DNA of 50,523 nt from Rhodospirillaceae bacterium (GTDB lineage: Bacteria; Pseudomonadota; Alphaproteobacteria; Rhodospirillales; Casp-alpha2): positions 1 to 50,523 of the forward strand of contig NZAZ01000076.1 in NCBI GenBank assembly GCA_002686255.1, given 5' to 3'. Shown here piece by piece: positions 21,585 through 29,051 of the stretch. Each line of letters opens with the position of its first letter. The first letter of the stretch is position 1. The notes below the pieces were generated by a model. The model was not told where the DNA came from. It worked only from the letters and a program-made list of their open reading frames with translations, and did not search any database. A program made the translations under genes and the position numbers.

Positions 21585-22904
21585 TCAGGTAGGCCGCCGC
21601 GCTGGCCCGGCGACGTCAAGCAACACCCCGCCCCTGAGCCCGAGCCACCGCCAAGCAGCCAGGTTGAGGTTGAGGCTTGAGATTGTGAACGCGAACGCCG
21701 TCGCCACCGCCGCACCCCAGATGCCGTAGAACGGGATCAGCGCCAGGTTCAAGGCTACGTTGGCGAACACGTTAGTGGTCATCAGCAGGCTCTGACGGCC
21801 GGGCTGGCCTGCCTGCAAGAGAATGTAGTCGAGGGGAATAAACACCGAATAGACGGCGAGCCCCGCGGCCAGGATCATCAGCAGCGGATAGCTGCCGGTA
21901 ACCAGCCCTTCGGGGAAGAAGGGTGCAAGATACGGATAGACGACCACCACCGCACCCGCGGCGGCGGCGAAGACGGCGAACCCGAGGCCCGCCGTCCGGC
22001 GGCAGAAGCGCACCAGCGCGGGCCTGTCGGCGGAGGCGAGAAGGCGCACCAGGACCGGGTTGGCGATGGTGCGTACCACCACCGGCACCTGGTACAGCCC
22101 CTCGATGAACAGCGCCGCGAAGCTGTAGATGCCGACCGCTTGGTCGCTGACGAAAATGCCGAGCATGATAATGTCAACACGGACGTAGGATTCGACGAGA
22201 AAGCCATTGACCAACGCCTTGACGCCGAAGCGAAGGTGGTCCTCCACCCAGACGCGCACGCGCCCGCCCGCGACGAACCCCCACATGGGCGGCCGAAGCA
22301 TGAGGATCAGGACCGGCATCAACAGAATCTCGGCGACGGAGAAGCTGGCTCCCAGCGCCGGACCCGGAAGCCCCAGCGCCGCGACGACGAAACAGCAGAC
22401 CAGAATCACGGTGACGCGGAACGCCTGCGCGGCGGCGAACGCCTTCATCCGCCGCCGGCCGTTTAGGATTCCCATCAACACCTTGTTGACGGCGAAGAAG
22501 GCTAGCCCCGGCGCCGCGAGAAGGACGCCATGGCCGACGGCGCCGCTGTCGACGATCCGCCCGATGGTCCCGCTGGAAAGGTAGACAGCCGCCGCCGTCG
22601 CCAGGCCGAACGCGGCGGCGAGCCAGATGGCCGCCGCCGACAGCAGGTCGCGCTCGGCCTCGGTGTCCATGAATTCGGCGTTATGTTTCTGCGCCGAATC
22701 GTTGACGCCCATCGCCGCCACTTGGCCGGCGATGACGTAAACGGCATAAATCTGGTTGAAAACGCCGAGCGTCTCGATCCCGAAATAGGCGGCGATGAAG
22801 AAGTTCAGGATCACGCCGGTGGCGGCCATGATGGCGAAGGAGCCGAAGTTCCATCCCGTATCGGTCAGGAACTTGCCATCAAACTGCGGTTCAGCGCTAG
22901 CCAT
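21585..22904 (-). CDS. Polysaccharide/oligosaccharide flippase (MOP superfamily, Wzx-like)
   Basis: This 439-aa integral membrane protein has about twelve hydrophobic segments, in the pattern of Wzx/RfbX-type flippases that move lipid-linked sugars from the cytoplasmic to the periplasmic face. It begins with the typical TGWNFGSFAIMAATGVILNF segment. It follows the GT2-radical SAM gene on the same strand. If that gene is read through its amber codon, its end falls only 8 nt before this ATG, which indicates a shared operon. The substrate cannot be read from sequence. Confidence 0.8.
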   Translation of the reverse strand: MASAEPQFDGKFLTDTGWNFGSFAIMAATGVILNFFIAAYFGIETLGVFNQIYAVYVIAGQVAAMGVNDSAQKHNAEFMDTEAERDLLSAAAIWLAAAFGLATAAAVYLSSGTIGRIVDSGAVGHGVLLAAPGLAFFAVNKVLMGILNGRRRMKAFAAAQAFRVTVILVCCFVVAALGLPGPALGASFSVAEILLMPVLILMLRPPMWGFVAGGRVRVWVEDHLRFGVKALVNGFLVESYVRVDIIMLGIFVSDQAVGIYSFAALFIEGLYQVPVVVRTIANPVLVRLLASADRPALVRFCRRTAGLGFAVFAAAAGAVVVVYPYLAPFFPEGLVTGSYPLLMILAAGLAVYSVFIPLDYILLQAGQPGRQSLLMTTNVFANVALNLALIPFYGIWGAAVATAFAFTISSLNLNLAAWRWLGLRGGVLLDVAGPARRPT

Positions 22905-22996
22905 GAATGGAATCAGTACAGCTTGTCGACGGCATTGAGTCGGGTCAGAATCTCTTCCAGGTCGAAGCCCGTGTGTTTGGCGAAGTCCTCAAGCTT

Positions 22997-25144
22997 CTAA
23001 ATGGCACCCTTGCGCAGGTAGCTGGAAAGCAATTTGGGATAGAAGCGCGGATTGAACAATATATTGGACGACATTGTACACTCATAAGTGCAGTGACAGC
23101 GGCGATTCTTGATTTGCTCCCGCTCCTCCTGGGCCTGTGCCGATTCCCATACCTTCGAAAGATCGTATCCGGCCTCCCTAACGTTGCCAAAGGGAGTGTT
23201 CAACTGTTCGCAAGCGAACAGTTCGCCGTTGTCCTTCAGAACGCCTAACAGTTGTCCGCCGTAACAAGAATAAAGGGAGGCATTCTGTTCATAGGTCTGG
23301 GCCAGCGCATGGGCCATTACGGTATCCTTAGCCTTCATCACGGATTGCAAGAGCGTTCGTCGGCCGTCCGAAGCTTTGTGAAGCCGATCCTTGCGGCGGT
23401 AAAGTTCGAGATATTCGACCATGTTCAGCTCGACGGGCCGGTCTCGCCAATCGATTCCCCGCATCAAATTGAGCGTTGCGTAATCGGGAGGTGTCGCCTC
23501 CAGCACGTCGTAGAGCGCCATGAGGTCGTCAAAGTTCGTGCCGATGAAGGTCGAATTAACGCCAATCGCCAGGTTCCAGTGCCGGGCGCTGAGTTGCAGG
23601 AGCGTATCGAGAGTTTCCAGGGCTTGGGAAAAGGCTTTCGGTTTGCGCCTGATCCGGTTGTGGCCTTCCTCGCCGCCGTCGAACGAAATGGTCAGGAAGA
23701 CGCTCAAGTCGGCGTCCTTCAGGATCGACCCGATCTGGGGAAGGATTCTCTCCACGCGGGCGCCGTTGGTGACCAGGTTCAATGTTTTGACATTCGTGTG
23801 GCGAACGAAACTCCTGACGATCTCCGGCAGGTCTTTGCGCAGGAATGGTTCGCCACCGGTCAGGGACAAGGCGACCAGATCCGGGACGGAGTGGGCAATG
23901 CGGTCGATTTCCTCAAGCGTCAATTGCGGCCGCGTCTTGTCGTTAAGCTCGCCGTTAGTCACCAGGAAACAGTGTTCACAACGGAAATCGCAAAGATTGG
24001 TGATGAAGAAGATGAGGTGAAGCGGCGGCCCGTCCTTGTTGACAATACGAGTTGTCGTCCGGGCATAGTCAAGCGCATTCTTGACCAAACCGGGTTGTTT
24101 CCACCGGGTTTCTTCCTTTTGGTTTGGCGGCAATAAACCGAGGAGCATACCGACTGACGCGGCAACCATTTCGATCGCCCGGAAGAAAAAAAGGCCGGCG
24201 CCAAACAACAAACCTCTTTCGCGAATCGCGAAGGCCAGCTTTTTGCCGAGATAAATACCGAACACGGCCAAGCTGCAAGCCCACACCACAAGGAAAAGAA
24301 CAACAAGTTCCCGGAGCAGATCCATTCCGTCAAACGCCATCAGATAAAGACCGACAACGATAGCGGCCAGCGGCAGCAACACTATGGTGGCGCCGGAAAG
24401 CACTTCAATTCCCCAGCCCAGCAATTCCGCAACCGACCAGGTCCGGCCCGGCGTGCCGAGCTTTCCTCGCCTATTCTGGATGATCGCCGCCGCCCGCAGC
24501 CTGTCATCCCGAAAAAGCTTAGGCAACGACAAGGGTTTGTCATGGATAAACGAGAACGCCTCGCTATAGGGCATCGTATGTCCATGATCGAGAAGCCGAA
24601 AATAGAACTCGTTGTCCTCGGTCGGAATATGGCCAAAGGATTCGTCAAATCCGCCGATCTCCAGAAACGCCGCACGCCGAATCAAAAAGCAGCTTGAGTT
24701 GATTCCCGGAGGCGGGTTTCCCCAACTGAGGAATTCGAGATTGTGCATATAGTTCTTGTACTTCCCGGCGAAGGGACCGCGTGGCGTATGGCGGGAACGT
24801 AGCCCCATGAGCCCGCAGATCGAGGCGTCTTCCGTCATCTTTCTAAGGGCTCCTTGAAACGCCTCGGAACTCAGGTAACAGTCGCTGTCCAGAAACAGGA
24901 GCAAATCCGTCTCGGCCTGTTTAGCACCCTCGTTCCGGCTTCGGCAGGCACCCTGGTTCTCAGCGAGTTCGATGACGGTGACGCCTTCGAAGCGCCGCGC
25001 GATCTCAGCCGATCTGTCGCTCGAGCAGTCATCGACAACCATAACGGCGTCGGGGAGCGGACTAAGCCGCTCTACATGGCGCAGAGCCTCCTCCAGGGTT
25101 TCAGAGGCGTTATAACAAGGAATGACAACGGAGTACGAAAGCAT
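22997..25144 (-). CDS. Glycosyltransferase family 2 - membrane - radical SAM/SPASM fusion protein
   Basis: This is a 715-aa fusion. Residues 1-215 form a GT2 glycosyltransferase, with VVIPCYNASETLEEAL, the nucleotide/metal-binding DSD at 86-88, and a probable catalytic EDNEF near 176-180. Three hydrophobic segments follow at about 246-270, 278-300 and 312-338. A radical SAM domain starts near residue 375, with CDFRCEHC (C385, C389, C392) for the SAM-binding 4Fe-4S cluster and LTGGEPFLRKDL after it. A cysteine-rich C-terminal region (CYGG, CEQL, CHCTYEC) resembles SPASM auxiliary-cluster domains. The frame continues beyond the TAG for 27 protein-like codons to a TGA at 22913-22915. A joint sugar-transfer and radical-modification role at the membrane is inferred; the substrate is unknown. 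Confidence 0.85.
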   Translation of the reverse strand: MLSYSVVIPCYNASETLEEALRHVERLSPLPDAVMVVDDCSSDRSAEIARRFEGVTVIELAENQGACRSRNEGAKQAETDLLLFLDSDCYLSSEAFQGALRKMTEDASICGLMGLRSRHTPRGPFAGKYKNYMHNLEFLSWGNPPPGINSSCFLIRRAAFLEIGGFDESFGHIPTEDNEFYFRLLDHGHTMPYSEAFSFIHDKPLSLPKLFRDDRLRAAAIIQNRRGKLGTPGRTWSVAELLGWGIEVLSGATIVLLPLAAIVVGLYLMAFDGMDLLRELVVLFLVVWACSLAVFGIYLGKKLAFAIRERGLLFGAGLFFFRAIEMVAASVGMLLGLLPPNQKEETRWKQPGLVKNALDYARTTTRIVNKDGPPLHLIFFITNLCDFRCEHCFLVTNGELNDKTRPQLTLEEIDRIAHSVPDLVALSLTGGEPFLRKDLPEIVRSFVRHTNVKTLNLVTNGARVERILPQIGSILKDADLSVFLTISFDGGEEGHNRIRRKPKAFSQALETLDTLLQLSARHWNLAIGVNSTFIGTNFDDLMALYDVLEATPPDYATLNLMRGIDWRDRPVELNMVEYLELYRRKDRLHKASDGRRTLLQSVMKAKDTVMAHALAQTYEQNASLYSCYGGQLLGVLKDNGELFACEQLNTPFGNVREAGYDLSKVWESAQAQEEREQIKNRRCHCTYECTMSSNILFNPRFYPKLLSSYLRKGAI

Positions 25145-25396
25145 CAGTGTCTCGGTCCAGCAAATAAAGACCAGCCGTTTTCTTGAAGGAGAGCCGACGG
25201 TTCACTCAGGCAATGAAAATAATCAAAGCCGGGAGACGGGGGAAGCCTTTTGGGGTTCCGAAAAGACTCCTGATCCGACATTTCCCAGATAAATACCAAA
25301 TCCGTGAAATTCAAATATTTATTTCACCGTCGGGGGTGTGCCGAAAACCAGCGGTTTCCATACACTGAGACAAAGGCCAATCACGGGTAGTGTCTG

Positions 25397-25879
25397 TTAT
25401 GACAGCGCGAGAATTATCTTCTCGGCAATCTCATGAGGCGACTGGTCCAGATCCAGCACGAGAGCATTATCGGGTTCCTCAAGCGCCTCGAATTGGCTTT
25501 CAAGCAGCGAAATCGGCATGAAATGATCGTCACGATCCTGTAAACGCCGGGCAATTTCGCTCGAAGTCCCCTTAAGGTATATGAGGTAATAGTCTTTACC
25601 CAACCGCCGGCGATAACTCCTTTTTAGGGTCGAGCAGGCAACGATAAGGGGTCTTGTGCCATCGTGCTCCCGAATCACCTGGGCCACCCGGTCCAACCAC
25701 GGCCAGCGATCGTCATCCGTGAGGGCGATCCCATGCTTCATTTTGTCAACGTTGGCTTGAGGGTGCAGGTCGTCGCCATCAACGAATAAGCCACTGAGTT
25801 TAGCCGCCAAAAGGCGGCCGACGGTCGTCTTGCCTGCGCCCGATACCCCCATCAGCACGATGCGGTTCGGTGGCTTCAC
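25397..25879 (-). CDS. gntK: Gluconokinase
   Basis: This 160-aa kinase phosphorylates gluconate to 6-phosphogluconate. The P-loop is GVSGAGKTT (residues 11-19); DGDDLHPQANVDKM and DDRWPWLD are typical of the family, and DDHFMPISLLESQFEALEEP is its C-terminal signature. It overlaps the upstream gnd gene by 4 nt (ATGA), so the two are translationally coupled and catalyse successive steps from gluconate to ribulose 5-phosphate. No gluconate transporter is seen nearby. Confidence 0.93.
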   Translation of the reverse strand: MKPPNRIVLMGVSGAGKTTVGRLLAAKLSGLFVDGDDLHPQANVDKMKHGIALTDDDRWPWLDRVAQVIREHDGTRPLIVACSTLKRSYRRRLGKDYYLIYLKGTSSEIARRLQDRDDHFMPISLLESQFEALEEPDNALVLDLDQSPHEIAEKIILALS

Positions 25880-27285
25880 GGATCGTCGTCTCGATGCCAG
25901 GGGCCGTGAACCAACACGTCTTGCCCGATGCGGCGAAAACCGTGGTCACCAAAGTAGTCACGTTGCAGTTGGATAAATCGGGTCGAAAGCCGCGACTGGC
26001 TAAGGGCGTCGACATATCCAGCAGCCGAGGAAAGGCCCGGCACAGGCAGGCCTACAGATAAGGCGGCCGTCAACAGGGCGCGTAACGGTTCAATGCCCTT
26101 AGCGACCAGCGGTTGAAACCAATCAGACCGGAGGAAATCGAAACACTCCGGTTCGGAATCCAGGCTGTCGGCAATTCTATGCACCATTTCGCCTCGCAGA
26201 ATGCAGCCTGAACGCCAGAGCAGTGCGACGCGGCGCCGATCAATTTTGGCACCGAAGTCGTCCTTCGCCGCGCCAATCAGAGAAAAGCCTTGTGCAAACG
26301 CACTCGCCATCGCGCAAGCGACGCCGGAACCGATCAGGGGAATCACGTCGTCGGGCGAAAGAGAGTGATGAAGTGCATCTCCGGCCATATTCTCCATGGC
26401 GTCGCTCCGCAAACGGTCCTCTGCGGACAAGATGCGAAACTGTACCGCCGCTGCGATCGTCGGCACGGCAACGCCCAGGTCAAAAGCCGCCTCGACAGCC
26501 CAATGTCCGGTTCCCTTCTGGTCGGCCCGGTCGTCAACGGAATCGACCAGGAAGCCCGTTCCGGCTTCATCCCGGCTGCCGGCAACGTGCTCCGATGCCT
26601 CGACCAGAAAACCGGCCGTCGCGCCTGAGTTGAGGGCATGGAAAGTTTTGGCGATCTCTTCGGCCGGCATTCCGCATCCTTTAGACAGGACATCAAAAAC
26701 ATCAGCGAGAATCTGCATAATCGCGTATTCGATGCCGTTGTGAACTATTTTGACGAAGTGCCCCGCGCCTCCTTCGCCGAGGTAGCCTGCACAGGGTTCA
26801 CCTTCGGCACGGGCGGCGATGGTTTCCAGCATCGGACTTGTCCGCTGCCAGGCCGCCGCTGGTCCGCCGGCCATGAGTGACGGCCCGTAGCGGGCCCCGT
26901 CGAGACCCCCTGAAACACCAAGCCCCAAAAGATGAATGCCCTGGCTCGATAGGGAGTCCTGTCGGCGTTCGGTATCTTTATAATGGGAGTTGCCGCAATC
27001 GATGATGACGTCCCCCCGTCCCAGAAGGCCAGAGAGGGTTGTCAGGCATTGCTCCACCGCGTCGCCGCTGGGAACCATCAACATTACACAGCGCGGAGGA
27101 GATAGGGACTCAATCAATTCTTCAATATCGCCACTTAAAGGAAGGTCCGGAAGAAAGGTCCCCACTTCGGTGCGGACGTTAGCCGATTGGTCCCAAGCCT
27201 GCACCGCGATGCCGTGCTCCATCATGTTGGCAGCAAGATTCCGCCCCATGCGGCCCAATCCGATCAAGCTGATCTCGTCTGACAT
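25876..27285 (-). CDS. gnd: 6-phosphogluconate dehydrogenase, decarboxylating
   Basis: This 469-aa enzyme oxidises and decarboxylates 6-phosphogluconate to ribulose 5-phosphate. The nucleotide-binding motif is IGLGRMGRNLA at residues 8-18, and the catalytic lysine region is GGAGHFVKIVHNGIEYA. Length matches the long dimeric class. Codon use looks less GC-rich than in the flanking housekeeping genes, consistent with acquisition. It is the first gene of a gnd-gntK unit. A possible promoter is TTGAGA (27388-27393) with TATCCT (27367-27372) on the minus strand, with a short 15-bp spacer. Confidence 0.95.
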   Translation of the reverse strand: MSDEISLIGLGRMGRNLAANMMEHGIAVQAWDQSANVRTEVGTFLPDLPLSGDIEELIESLSPPRCVMLMVPSGDAVEQCLTTLSGLLGRGDVIIDCGNSHYKDTERRQDSLSSQGIHLLGLGVSGGLDGARYGPSLMAGGPAAAWQRTSPMLETIAARAEGEPCAGYLGEGGAGHFVKIVHNGIEYAIMQILADVFDVLSKGCGMPAEEIAKTFHALNSGATAGFLVEASEHVAGSRDEAGTGFLVDSVDDRADQKGTGHWAVEAAFDLGVAVPTIAAAVQFRILSAEDRLRSDAMENMAGDALHHSLSPDDVIPLIGSGVACAMASAFAQGFSLIGAAKDDFGAKIDRRRVALLWRSGCILRGEMVHRIADSLDSEPECFDFLRSDWFQPLVAKGIEPLRALLTAALSVGLPVPGLSSAAGYVDALSQSRLSTRFIQLQRDYFGDHGFRRIGQDVLVHGPWHRDDDP

Positions 27286-27410
27286 GCGCCAACCGTCCTC
27301 TCGTTCACTAACAAATTCTAACCGTTAAACCGCGACACGGGCAGTCCCCTTGTATCAACGGAAAATAGGATAGACGTAAAAGAGGTTTCTCAACGGCTCG
27401 TTTGTAACCT

Positions 27411-27438
27411 TTGACACCGTTCTAATGTCCGCTATTAG
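27411..27438 (+). promoter_or_regulatory. Predicted sigma70-type promoter with overlapping inverted repeat
   Basis: A perfect -35 (TTGACA, 27411-27416) is followed after 16 bp by TATTAG (27433-27438). A perfect inverted repeat TCCGCT-ATT-AGCGGA (27428-27442) covers the -10, as an operator would. Transcription would run through the hairpin-rich leader to the small ParB-like gene. Confidence 0.5.
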
Positions 27439-27439
27439 C

Positions 27440-27600
27440 GGAAGTAAACACGGTCTCGGGGGAAGAGCGGACATCATGGCGCCGGATGTCCGCCGTTCAC
27501 CCGAAAGCGGTGGTGAAATGGCAAAGCCGGTAACTTCGGCTGATAGCTAAAACCGGAAATTCAGCACTTCCGTCTTTAGCCCGGAAAAGCTAACGTCATT
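27440..27600 (+). ncRNA. Candidate structured RNA or leader upstream of the ParB-like gene
   Basis: Consecutive perfect stems are visible: GCGGACATC / GATGTCCGC (27467-27493, 9 bp with a 9-nt loop), TTCACC / GGTGAA (27496-27517), AGCCG / CGGCT (27525-27541), then CGGAA / TTCCG and GCTAAA / TTTAGC pairs up to about 27600. A 24-codon frame starts at 27476 inside the first loop and could be a leader peptide. I do not recognise a known RNA family. The density of stems in a 470-bp gap and the promoter in front of it are the evidence. Confidence 0.4.
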
Positions 27601-27755
27601 ATTCCGTTTGTTGGCGTTGCTTGGTAATTCGTACCTGTTGAAAATCCCGTATTTCCCACTCGGGACGGTGGATAGGTGGGCGCTTTTCCGGACAACGTGG
27701 CATGGCTGGCCGCCCGGCCCGAGGACACTATGAGGAACAAAGGCGCTTCAACAAC

Positions 27756-28007
27756 ATGTTGATGGAGAACCAGATCCTCAAGATTGAGGACATATATGTG
27801 CCGGTCAAGCGGCAAAAAACGCTTAATCCCAAGGTCGTCAACGAAATCGCCGAGAGTATGCTGGAGGAAGGTCAACTGACCCCGATATGGGTTCGTCGGG
27901 ACGGCAAGCGTTTTGTCCTTGTCGAAGGCCTGCATCGGTTGGAGGCGTGCAAGGCGCTCGGCGACGAGACGATTGTCGGTCTCCTGGTTCAGGCTCGCCG
28001 GAAATAA
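27756..28007 (+). CDS. Small ParB/Srx-fold protein (ParB N-terminal domain-like)
   Basis: This protein of about 83 aa consists of little more than a ParB N-terminal-like domain: LKIEDIYVPVKR, then IAESMLEEGQLTPIWVRRDG and the conserved LVEGLHRLEACKALG. It lacks the helix-turn-helix and dimerisation domains of a segregation ParB, so chromosome partitioning is unlikely. Stand-alone members occur as nucleases, nucleotide-binding regulators and phage proteins. The ATG at 27756 or 27762 fits the domain start; the frame is open from an ATG at 27702. It stands alone, 300 bp after a predicted promoter. Confidence 0.7.
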   Translation: MLMENQILKIEDIYVPVKRQKTLNPKVVNEIAESMLEEGQLTPIWVRRDGKRFVLVEGLHRLEACKALGDETIVGLLVQARRK

Positions 28008-28054
28008 GCCCGATCCGAAACGCTCTTGAACCGCGCCTTGGTTTAAAACAGAGG

Positions 28055-28074
28055 CCAGCCTAATCCAGCCTAAT
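28055..28074. repeat. 10-bp direct repeat before the glpK remnant
   Basis: CCAGCCTAAT occurs twice in tandem just upstream of the truncated glpK start. It may mark a duplication or deletion junction. Confidence 0.5.
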
Positions 28075-28082
28075 AATGCGCC

Positions 28083-28208
28083 ATGTCCAATTACGTTCTT
28101 GCCATTGATCAGGGAACCACGTCGGCGCTCGCGGTCCGCCTTGCGTCGGACAGCGGCCACGGCGCCTGCCGCTCCCGCACGGCTGTGAGGAGTCGGACGG
28201 GTGCATAG
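28083..28208 (+). pseudogene. glpK: Truncated glycerol kinase 5' remnant
   Basis: The ATG at 28083 opens with MSNYVLAIDQGTTS, the phosphate-binding N-terminus typical of glycerol kinase. After about 15-20 codons the similarity stops and the frame ends at TAG (28206-28208) after 41 codons. A functional enzyme has about 500 residues. No further glpK sequence is visible before the convergent pirin gene at 28311, so the rest appears deleted. The match is short but very characteristic; another FGGY kinase cannot be excluded. Confidence 0.6.
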
Positions 28209-28310
28209 TACCGTCGAAGCCCCCGAACAAAGCCGCACGCCGTGATCGGCGCGGGGGGAGCGGGGTAACCCGTTTCCCTGCCGCGACCCGGAACTTCGGA
28301 ACTTGGCTGC

Positions 28311-29051
28311 TCACGCGGAGGCCTCCAGGGGCATCTCAATGATGATGAAGTGCGCCTTGTCGGTGGCGAGTGAGAACTCCAGGCTGGCGTCACCACGTAC
28401 CCTCAGTGAATCGCGCTCCGTCAGGGAGGCGTGCCGGTCAATGTCCACCCCTCCTTCGAAGCAGTAGATGTACGCTTGGCGATCTTCGTTCAAGACGTAA
28501 GATACCCTTGCGCCCTTGTCGGTCAACTCGGACACGTGAACGTTGATGTCCTGACAGACATAGAGGCAAGCGCCGGCTCTGTTCGCGGGGCCGGAAATGA
28601 CGTGCAGGAGTTTGTTTTTCCTGTCTTCGGGCGAAAACCTGTGGAGATCGTATCTGACTGGCAAGCCTCTGGACCCGGGCACAATCCAAATCTGGAGGAA
28701 GCGGCACCAATCATCCTGCTCATTCAGCTCCGAATGGGTCACGCCGGTCCCCGCCGAGATGCACTGCGCGTCTCCGCGCGAGAGAATCTCATGGTTGCCG
28801 GCGCTGTCGCGATGGGTGAGCTTGCCATCGACGACATAGCTGAAGATTTCCATTTCACTGTGAGGGTGGGTGTCGAAGCCGCTATGGGGCTTCACGTTGT
28901 CGTCGTTCAGCACCCTCAGGACCCCGTAGTTCATGTTCCTAGGGTCGTAGTAGTTGGCAAAAGAGAAATGAAAGTACGTATTTGCCGGATGCATGTCACC
29001 GGCCTCTAGGTAGTGTAGGTCCTCGGCCTTCGTCTTCTGGTGATTCCTCAT
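28311..29051 (-). CDS. Pirin family protein (bicupin)
   Basis: This 246-aa pirin/YhaK-like double-cupin protein carries the metal-binding pattern DTHPHSEMEIFSYVVDG and GTGVTHSELN in the N-terminal cupin. Pirins bind iron and act as quercetinases or redox-linked regulators; the role here is unknown. The ATG at 29051 has GAGGAG at good spacing; an in-frame start at 29099 would overlap the upstream gene. It lies 10 nt after the CDGSH gene and is presumably cotranscribed. Confidence 0.88.
   Translation of the reverse strand: MRNHQKTKAEDLHYLEAGDMHPANTYFHFSFANYYDPRNMNYGVLRVLNDDNVKPHSGFDTHPHSEMEIFSYVVDGKLTHRDSAGNHEILSRGDAQCISAGTGVTHSELNEQDDWCRFLQIWIVPGSRGLPVRYDLHRFSPEDRKNKLLHVISGPANRAGACLYVCQDINVHVSELTDKGARVSYVLNEDRQAYIYCFEGGVDIDRHASLTERDSLRVRGDASLEFSLATDKAHFIIIEMPLEASA

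Follow-up and report, generated by a model that had tools for sequence, protein, structure and literature searches.

A GT2–membrane–radical SAM fusion protein and the recurrent pairing of GT2 and radical SAM genes

The analysed window, a stretch of 50,523 nucleotides, encoded a protein of 715 amino acids (22997–25144, minus strand) in which a GT2 glycosyltransferase domain, a membrane part and a radical SAM domain were joined in one chain. The motifs of both catalytic domains were retained, the fusion recurred in six further genomes, and the unfused relatives of its two halves were encoded in tight linkage. These features suggest a membrane-anchored two-step enzyme, in which the GT2 domain would transfer a sugar and the radical SAM domain would then alter that sugar at the cytosolic face; the probability of this reading was judged to be about even (roughly 0.5). 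Both parts of the fusion are of already known kinds. However, no description of the fused architecture or of the GT2/radical SAM gene pairing was found in open-licence PMC papers, and 77 NCBIfam models matched the window fusion, of which the best 25 were all below their own cut-offs. The initial annotation, which did not recognise the arrangement as a described family, is in keeping with these sources.

Domain architecture of the fusion protein

The gene was a single uninterrupted open reading frame of 715 codons on the minus strand, with an ATG start. The range given initially, 22913–25144, contained the fusion, but its lower boundary lay 84 nt too low, since the reading frame begins at 22997. 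The presence of GT2, membrane and radical SAM parts in one chain was confirmed by the reading frame, by Pfam and by an AlphaFold2 model. The model of the whole fusion was calculated from a 43-row alignment, with a mean pLDDT of 86.6 and a pTM of 0.75, and the pLDDT fell below 50 only at residues 227–236 and 339–349.

The GT2 catalytic domain comprised approximately residues 1–204 (24533–25144, minus strand). Glycos_transf_2 (PF00535) matched residues 5–163 with an E value of 4.6e-29 and 101.9 bits, against a cut-off of 23.3. The DSD motif noted initially was located at residues 86–88, and Asp86, Ser87 and Asp88, together with Glu176 and Asp177, were invariant across the three fusions aligned first (alignment A1). 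Loss of these catalytic residues would have counted against sugar transfer; they were retained. In structure comparison of the model, the GT2 fold resembled chondroitin polymerase, TarS and membrane synthases with Z scores of about 20–23, and the GT2–membrane half (approximately residues 1–340) aligned with hyaluronan synthase, BcsA and PcManGT with Z scores of about 21–22.

The membrane region (approximately residues 241–336; 24137–24424, minus strand) was assigned from hydropathy, loop charges and the model, in which helices spanned residues 238–270, 274–310 and 312–335. Two segments, residues 253–271 and 280–298, were strongly hydrophobic, with mean hydropathies of 2.46 and 2.58 and no charged residue, and were connected by a net negative loop. 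The third segment (residues 320–338) was weaker and amphipathic, with a hydropathy of 1.75, two charged residues and a moment of 0.40, and its flanking loops carried a net charge of +3 on both sides. For L061 and L062, among the seven fusions, only two segments passed the hydropathy threshold. Of the three membrane segments annotated initially, two are therefore clear, but the third is weak and amphipathic and is absent at threshold in these two fusions. Three full crossings would place the iron–sulphur radical enzyme outside the cytosol, so the region was read as a hairpin followed by an interface or re-entrant helix, and from this predicted topology both catalytic domains are most simply cytosolic. 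Between the membrane region and the radical SAM core lay approximately 40 residues.

The radical SAM core (approximately residues 376–560; 23465–24019, minus strand) matched Radical_SAM (PF04055) at residues 381–524 with an E value of 2.5e-15 and 57.5 bits, against a cut-off of 29.5. It contained the CX3CX2C motif at residues 385–392 (Cys385, Cys389 and Cys392) and a GGEP motif at residues 430–433. An auxiliary iron–sulphur site was assigned from motif positions and conservation to residues 627–689 (23078–23266, minus strand), with CX12GX4C (Cys627–Cys645) followed by CxCx3C (Cys683, Cys685 and Cys689). Residues Cys385, Cys389, Cys392, Cys627, Cys645, Cys683, Cys685, Cys689 and Arg562 and the GGE sequence were invariant in all 32 radical SAM rows, which were drawn from 22 genomes and one plasmid, and Pro433 of the GGEP motif was kept in 28 of them. 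In a later 32-row set, from which the plasmid row and three fusions were left out and to which four further members were added, the cysteines and GGE were again invariant, and Arg562 was nearly so.

The canonical SPASM domain has seven cysteines, in the pattern CX9-15GX4C, CX2CX5CX3C and C. The fusion contained CX12GX4C and then CxCx3C only, and SPASM (PF13186) scored 18.9 bits at residues 637–685, below the Pfam cut-off of 21.5. The cysteines annotated initially as CxxxCxxC plus SPASM-like were accordingly recovered for the first motif, while the second is SPASM-like only in a loose sense, as the canonical pattern is missing. One SAM-binding 4Fe–4S cluster and one auxiliary cluster on some of Cys627, Cys645, Cys683, Cys685 and Cys689 are predicted, together with reductive cleavage of SAM. 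HpnJ is a radical SAM enzyme of the B12-binding type, whereas Pfam gave no match to a B12-binding domain in the window fusion, and the HpnJ model was not among the best 25 of the 77 NCBIfam matches.

When the radical SAM part was modelled alone, a radical SAM fold with a pLDDT of 91.0 was obtained. The best Foldseek match was BlsE, with an E value of 1.7e-12. Alignment with BlsE (PDB code 7vob) gave a Z score of 23.1 and 3.3 Å over 291 residues with 18% identity, and alignment with SkfB (PDB code 6efn) gave a Z score of 23.9 and 3.0 Å over 272 residues, so that BlsE and SkfB tie in Z for this model. SuiB followed with a Z score of 20.9, and DesII with 19.3 (Foldseek E value of 1.2e-9). In a sequence profile search SkfB was nearest (E value of 1.3e-24) and BlsE was weaker (4.5e-13). 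Since SkfB ties and SuiB comes next, the fold leaves the substrate unfixed; fold and sequence allow sugars as well as peptides.

Recurrence of the fusion and linkage of the unfused genes

Homologues were searched for among relatives and across the class, order and phylum. Fusions with an identical order of domains were encoded in six further genomes, G055, G044, G122, G589, G066 and G773, of families f9, f1, f54, f23, f20 and f236, respectively. The G044 fusion belongs to the window's own family (f1) and the other five to other families, with the G122 fusion coming from another order and the G773 fusion from another class. If all homologues had been separate genes, the fusion could have been regarded as a local accident, which is not so. 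In the window's own genome (G000), three further members were located on other contigs, each adjoining a GT2 gene.

Members were defined as radical SAM proteins scoring at least 120 bits on the sequence profile, and 37 were examined. One of these, from G487 (L124), matched the profile without having the CxCx3C motif, and it was left out of the tree and of the 25 proteins of the order census described below. Radical SAM proteins below 120 bits, including a viral fusion with 60.9 bits (L078), were not counted. Among the 36 members, seven were fusions, 26 had a same-strand GT2 gene no more than 200 bases away, two were without a partner, and one, on a Parabacteroides plasmid, preceded a gene annotated as a nucleotide-sugar-binding protein. 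This last locus (L088:10010–12487; Parabacteroides distasonis plasmid NZ_OY725749.1) thus combined a CxCx3C radical SAM gene with a non-GT2 partner. The member of G715 (L090) had no adjoining GT2 gene, with XrtA-type genes about 4 kb away, and the member of G669 (L122) adjoined a B12-radical SAM gene and not a GT2 gene. The unfused pairs occurred in either gene order, 19 with the radical SAM gene first and seven with the glycosyltransferase gene first.

A census of the order gave 26 matches with an E value of 1e-40 or better in 19 of 317 genomes. The CxCx3C motif was carried by 25 of the 26; five were fused to a GT2 domain, 19 lay directly beside a GT2 gene, and the G669 protein was neither, so that 24 of the 25 CxCx3C proteins were fused to or directly beside GT2. 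Unfused GT2/radical SAM pairs, for which a check had been proposed initially, therefore exist and are the rule for the CxCx3C radical SAM group.

As a control, all matches to PF04055 (E value of 1e-8 or better) and PF00535 (E value of 1e-5 or better) were collected from G000, G037 and G055. Nine of the 113 radical SAM matches belonged to the CxCx3C family. A GT2 gene on the same strand within 1.5 kb was found for all nine of these, compared with six of the other 104 (p = 8e-10), and for 7/7 compared with 6/104 when the two fusions were omitted (p = 5e-8); both p values are indicative, because the three genomes are related and were picked for holding members, and because the G055 contig C2 locus supplied two members. 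The number of PF04055 matches was 58 in G000, a 3.16 Mb assembly given as 5.6% contaminated, against 18 and 37 in two relatives, and several radical SAM genes lay close together on contig C161 of G000.

Further scans were of a kind that picks up mainly close relatives. The scan of genome contigs for further relatives gave weak GT2 matches only, and in plasmid and phage records no place covered 80% of the query. The viral scan gave 11 loci, two of which were opened. On IMG/VR contig 3300017991_004311, classed as viral, a 555-residue protein (L078:4995–6662, plus strand) contained GT2 (PF00535) and radical SAM (PF04055) domains and apparently lacked both a membrane part and CxCx3C. It is a separate kind of GT2–radical SAM fusion and adjoins genes that resemble RmlA and RmlB by reading.

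A tree of 36 radical SAM domains required five changes to account for the seven fusions, at least two of which were forced by well-supported branches. A single origin of all seven was rejected, as the tree that placed them in one clade gave an AU p of 0.00016, which indicates that the fusion was gained or lost repeatedly. One clade of the window fusion with L027, L028 and L061 was not rejected (AU p = 0.158). Repeated joining and repeated splitting are indistinguishable in this tree, and the number of events is unsure because of the long branches of the window row and of other fusions. The region of the G044 fusion shared several genes with the regions of the unfused pairs in G042, G015 and G037. 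That the same two partners were repeatedly joined or split, with their order kept, speaks for a functional coupling.

Genomic surroundings

The neighbourhoods of several members pointed to surface polysaccharides. The L089 fusion came after XrtA/PEP-CTERM exopolysaccharide genes for chain length, tyrosine kinase, deacetylase and FemAB proteins, all above the NCBIfam cut-offs, and the L061 fusion adjoined a UDP-glucose/GDP-mannose dehydrogenase gene and an RmlD-like gene. By reading, the clusters at L062 and L063 resembled nucleotide-sugar and surface-glycan clusters. The unfused pair at L030 lay near NeuB/epimerase genes, DegT genes and an Asn-synthase gene. B12-binding radical SAM proteins were encoded near several members, and large membrane proteins near some fusions, two of the latter with weak GT-C-like matches (GT87 and PMT_2), both below cut-off. 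The upstream neighbours of the window fusion were gluconokinase and 6-phosphogluconate dehydrogenase genes, with no evident glycan cluster, and none was evident by reading at the L027 fusion. The unusual surface glycan suggested initially is consequently in keeping with the polysaccharide loci of some members but not obviously with the window fusion's own locus. Because the neighbours vary between loci, no single product is indicated.

A uronic-acid supply gene was considered as a constant neighbour and rejected, as UDP-glucose/GDP-mannose dehydrogenase was encoded at one of the 31 loci compared (L061). Asn-synthase-type genes lay within about 4 kb of seven members (L030, L032, L036, L038, L039, L063 and L067), and two of these were checked with Pfam.

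The next gene downstream of the window fusion, after a gap of 92 bp, encoded a Wzx-type polysaccharide flippase of 439 residues (21585–22904, minus strand), which matched PF01943 with 38.0 bits against a cut-off of 28.2. The initial annotation was right in describing a Wzx-like flippase as the next gene, but its role as partner is weakly supported at best. PF01943 was found beside the fusion only in the window's genome among the seven fusion genomes, and the GC3 value of the flippase gene (0.85) was closer to that of tyrS (0.91) than to those of the fusion (0.68), gluconokinase (0.64) and 6-phosphogluconate dehydrogenase (0.64) genes, so that a compositional boundary falls between flippase and fusion. 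Close relatives of the flippase sit in another conserved gene set. Relatives were searched for in 150 genomes, and ten of the 24 places listed were opened. There the flippase gene repeatedly adjoined one for a protein of the Asn-synthase type, an assignment made from reading the sequence, and a large membrane protein was often encoded as well; no match to the radical SAM profile was found in these ten neighbourhoods. The flippase is probably not an obligatory partner of the fusion.

A second flippase copy in the window's genome (L178:6315–7634; G000:C61) was 69.5% identical to window positions 21585–22904. Its neighbours were an Asn-synthase-type gene and one for a large membrane protein, a set that was also present in relatives, while the window copy lay apart. 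The region of the window at about 23000–29000, with the fusion and the gluconate genes, had a GC content of about 0.55–0.57, compared with about 0.65–0.68 upstream of 22 kb, and may be acquired DNA. Among plasmid-collection records, the GlnE protein encoded in the window was closest to that of Tistrella mobilis (52.3%), which points to an alphaproteobacterium.

Proposed reaction and known systems

From the above features an acceptor, a substrate, a reaction and an order of steps were inferred. With a nucleotide sugar as donor, the GT2 domain would glycosylate an acceptor held in the membrane, for which a glycan intermediate linked to polyprenyl or another lipid is the most likely candidate. 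A 5'-deoxyadenosyl radical, made by the radical SAM domain tethered in the same chain, would then abstract a hydrogen from the sugar just attached. This sugar could be epimerised or dehydrogenated or, if it is a uronic acid, oxidatively decarboxylated, and would enter a surface glycan in its altered form. The single most likely reaction is a BlsE-like decarboxylation, offered as a guess with a rather small chance of being right. A sugar was preferred as the substrate on three grounds: the pairing with GT2, the polysaccharide loci and the second cysteine motif of BlsE, C317xC319xxC322, where a second cluster is suggested by its authors (PMC3715490).

The order of the two steps could also be reversed, in that the radical SAM domain would act on the nucleotide sugar donor and pass the altered donor to the GT2 domain. 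DesII, which belongs to TDP-desosamine synthesis (PMC11434129), would provide the model for this order and is among the fold matches described above, and fusion to the transferase would be an equally good way of channelling an unusual donor. In favour of transfer first, BlsE, which acts after coupling, is closer in fold (Z score of 23.1 compared with 19.3), and a membrane anchor would fit a substrate bound to a lipid. These two points do not decide the matter, and the donor-first order was considered doubtful but a serious candidate. An action of the radical SAM domain on the lipid or another part of the acceptor, or the coupling of a group to it, is unlikely. Radical SAM enzymes do act on membrane lipids, for example tetraether synthase, which appeared in the match lists, and HpnH (PMC12583986); however, the profile match to tetraether synthase covers only positions 29–124, the core, and an unsystematic look at the neighbourhoods gave no pointer to lipid synthesis.

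SkfB, a peptide maturase, ties in fold with BlsE, which raises a mycofactocin-like arrangement in which the radical SAM domain would mature a peptide and the GT2 domain would glycosylate it. MftF and MftC belong to the mycofactocin pathway, which has a peptide substrate. Among NCBIfam models, MftF (TIGR03965) matched the window protein best, with 81.1 bits over its GT2 part, and two partner GT2 proteins scored 95.0 and 115.4 bits, but none of the three comes near the cut-off of 280. A crude all-against-all screen was made of 694 small open reading frames, some counted twice, within 2.6 kb of members, with called genes unmasked at loci outside the first gene calling. It matched only L033 with L034, from one genus, and L064 with L065, from two families, the latter over 21 residues with an E value of about 1.6e-4, a match that favours a peptide. 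A leader-binding domain is larger than the approximately 40 residues available between the membrane part and the radical SAM core. The peptide reading is thus highly improbable, and the attached peptide mentioned in the initial annotation received little support from the screen. It is very unlikely, too, that two independent enzymes were tethered for co-expression or membrane placement only, without a shared substrate. Unfused relatives in either gene order seem to manage without a tether, which would fit such independence, while the near-universal adjacency of the genes and the repeated gain or loss of the fusion speak for a shared task.

In a wider form of the reading that puts transfer before radical editing, the fused proteins and gene pairs may together represent a kind of two-part glycan enzyme that is widespread but undescribed. 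Its radical SAM part would rewrite an unactivated C–H bond of a GT2-placed sugar on a membrane-bound carrier; this extension is tentative and rather less likely than not. Sugars would then be diversified after transfer and not at the nucleotide-sugar stage, and surface glycans would hold residues that are not predicted by nucleotide-sugar pathways. Predictions of bacterial glycan structures usually start from nucleotide-sugar genes and glycosyltransferases. With radical editing after transfer, they would fail at every occurrence of the pair, and unusual surface sugars from this source would be overlooked. The question is testable, since one motif identifies these radical SAM proteins and nearly every one examined has a presumptive partner. 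With the fused form, both activities, transfer and radical editing, could be assayed on a single protein.

When compared with known systems, the fusion shares a GT2 domain and membrane helices with hyaluronan synthase, BcsA and PcManGT, which are without a radical SAM domain. MftF is a GT2 protein of the same broad group and shares its pathway with the radical SAM/SPASM enzyme MftC, but the two are unfused and have a peptide substrate, and the MftF score of the window protein is 81.1 against 280. SkfB, the sporulation killing factor maturase, shares the tied best fold, the CX12GX4C start and a CxC further on; in contrast to the fusion, it is a peptide maturase without GT2, and the alignment match ends at CxC, before the place of Cys689.

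BlsE resembles the fusion in its fold, its GGEP motif and, if the proposed reaction holds, a substrate sugar that is already coupled to a partner. The enzyme acts once sugar and cytosine are coupled and removes the carboxyl group of cytosylglucuronic acid at C5 of the sugar (PMC3715490). Its second cysteine motif, CxCxxC (C317–C322), is close to the CxCx3C of the fusion, with a spacing that differs by one, whereas its radical motif is CxxxCxMC and its substrate is a nucleoside (PMC3715490). The solved BlsE chain has 327 residues, without a GT2 or membrane part. A precedent for the proposed order of steps is the bacteriohopanetetrol cyclitol ether pathway, in which a membrane lipid is glycosylated by the glycosyltransferase HpnI and the glycosylated lipid is later changed by the radical SAM enzyme HpnJ (PMC12583986); unlike in the fusion, HpnI, HpnK and HpnJ are encoded by separate genes, with a deacetylase step between transfer and radical chemistry.
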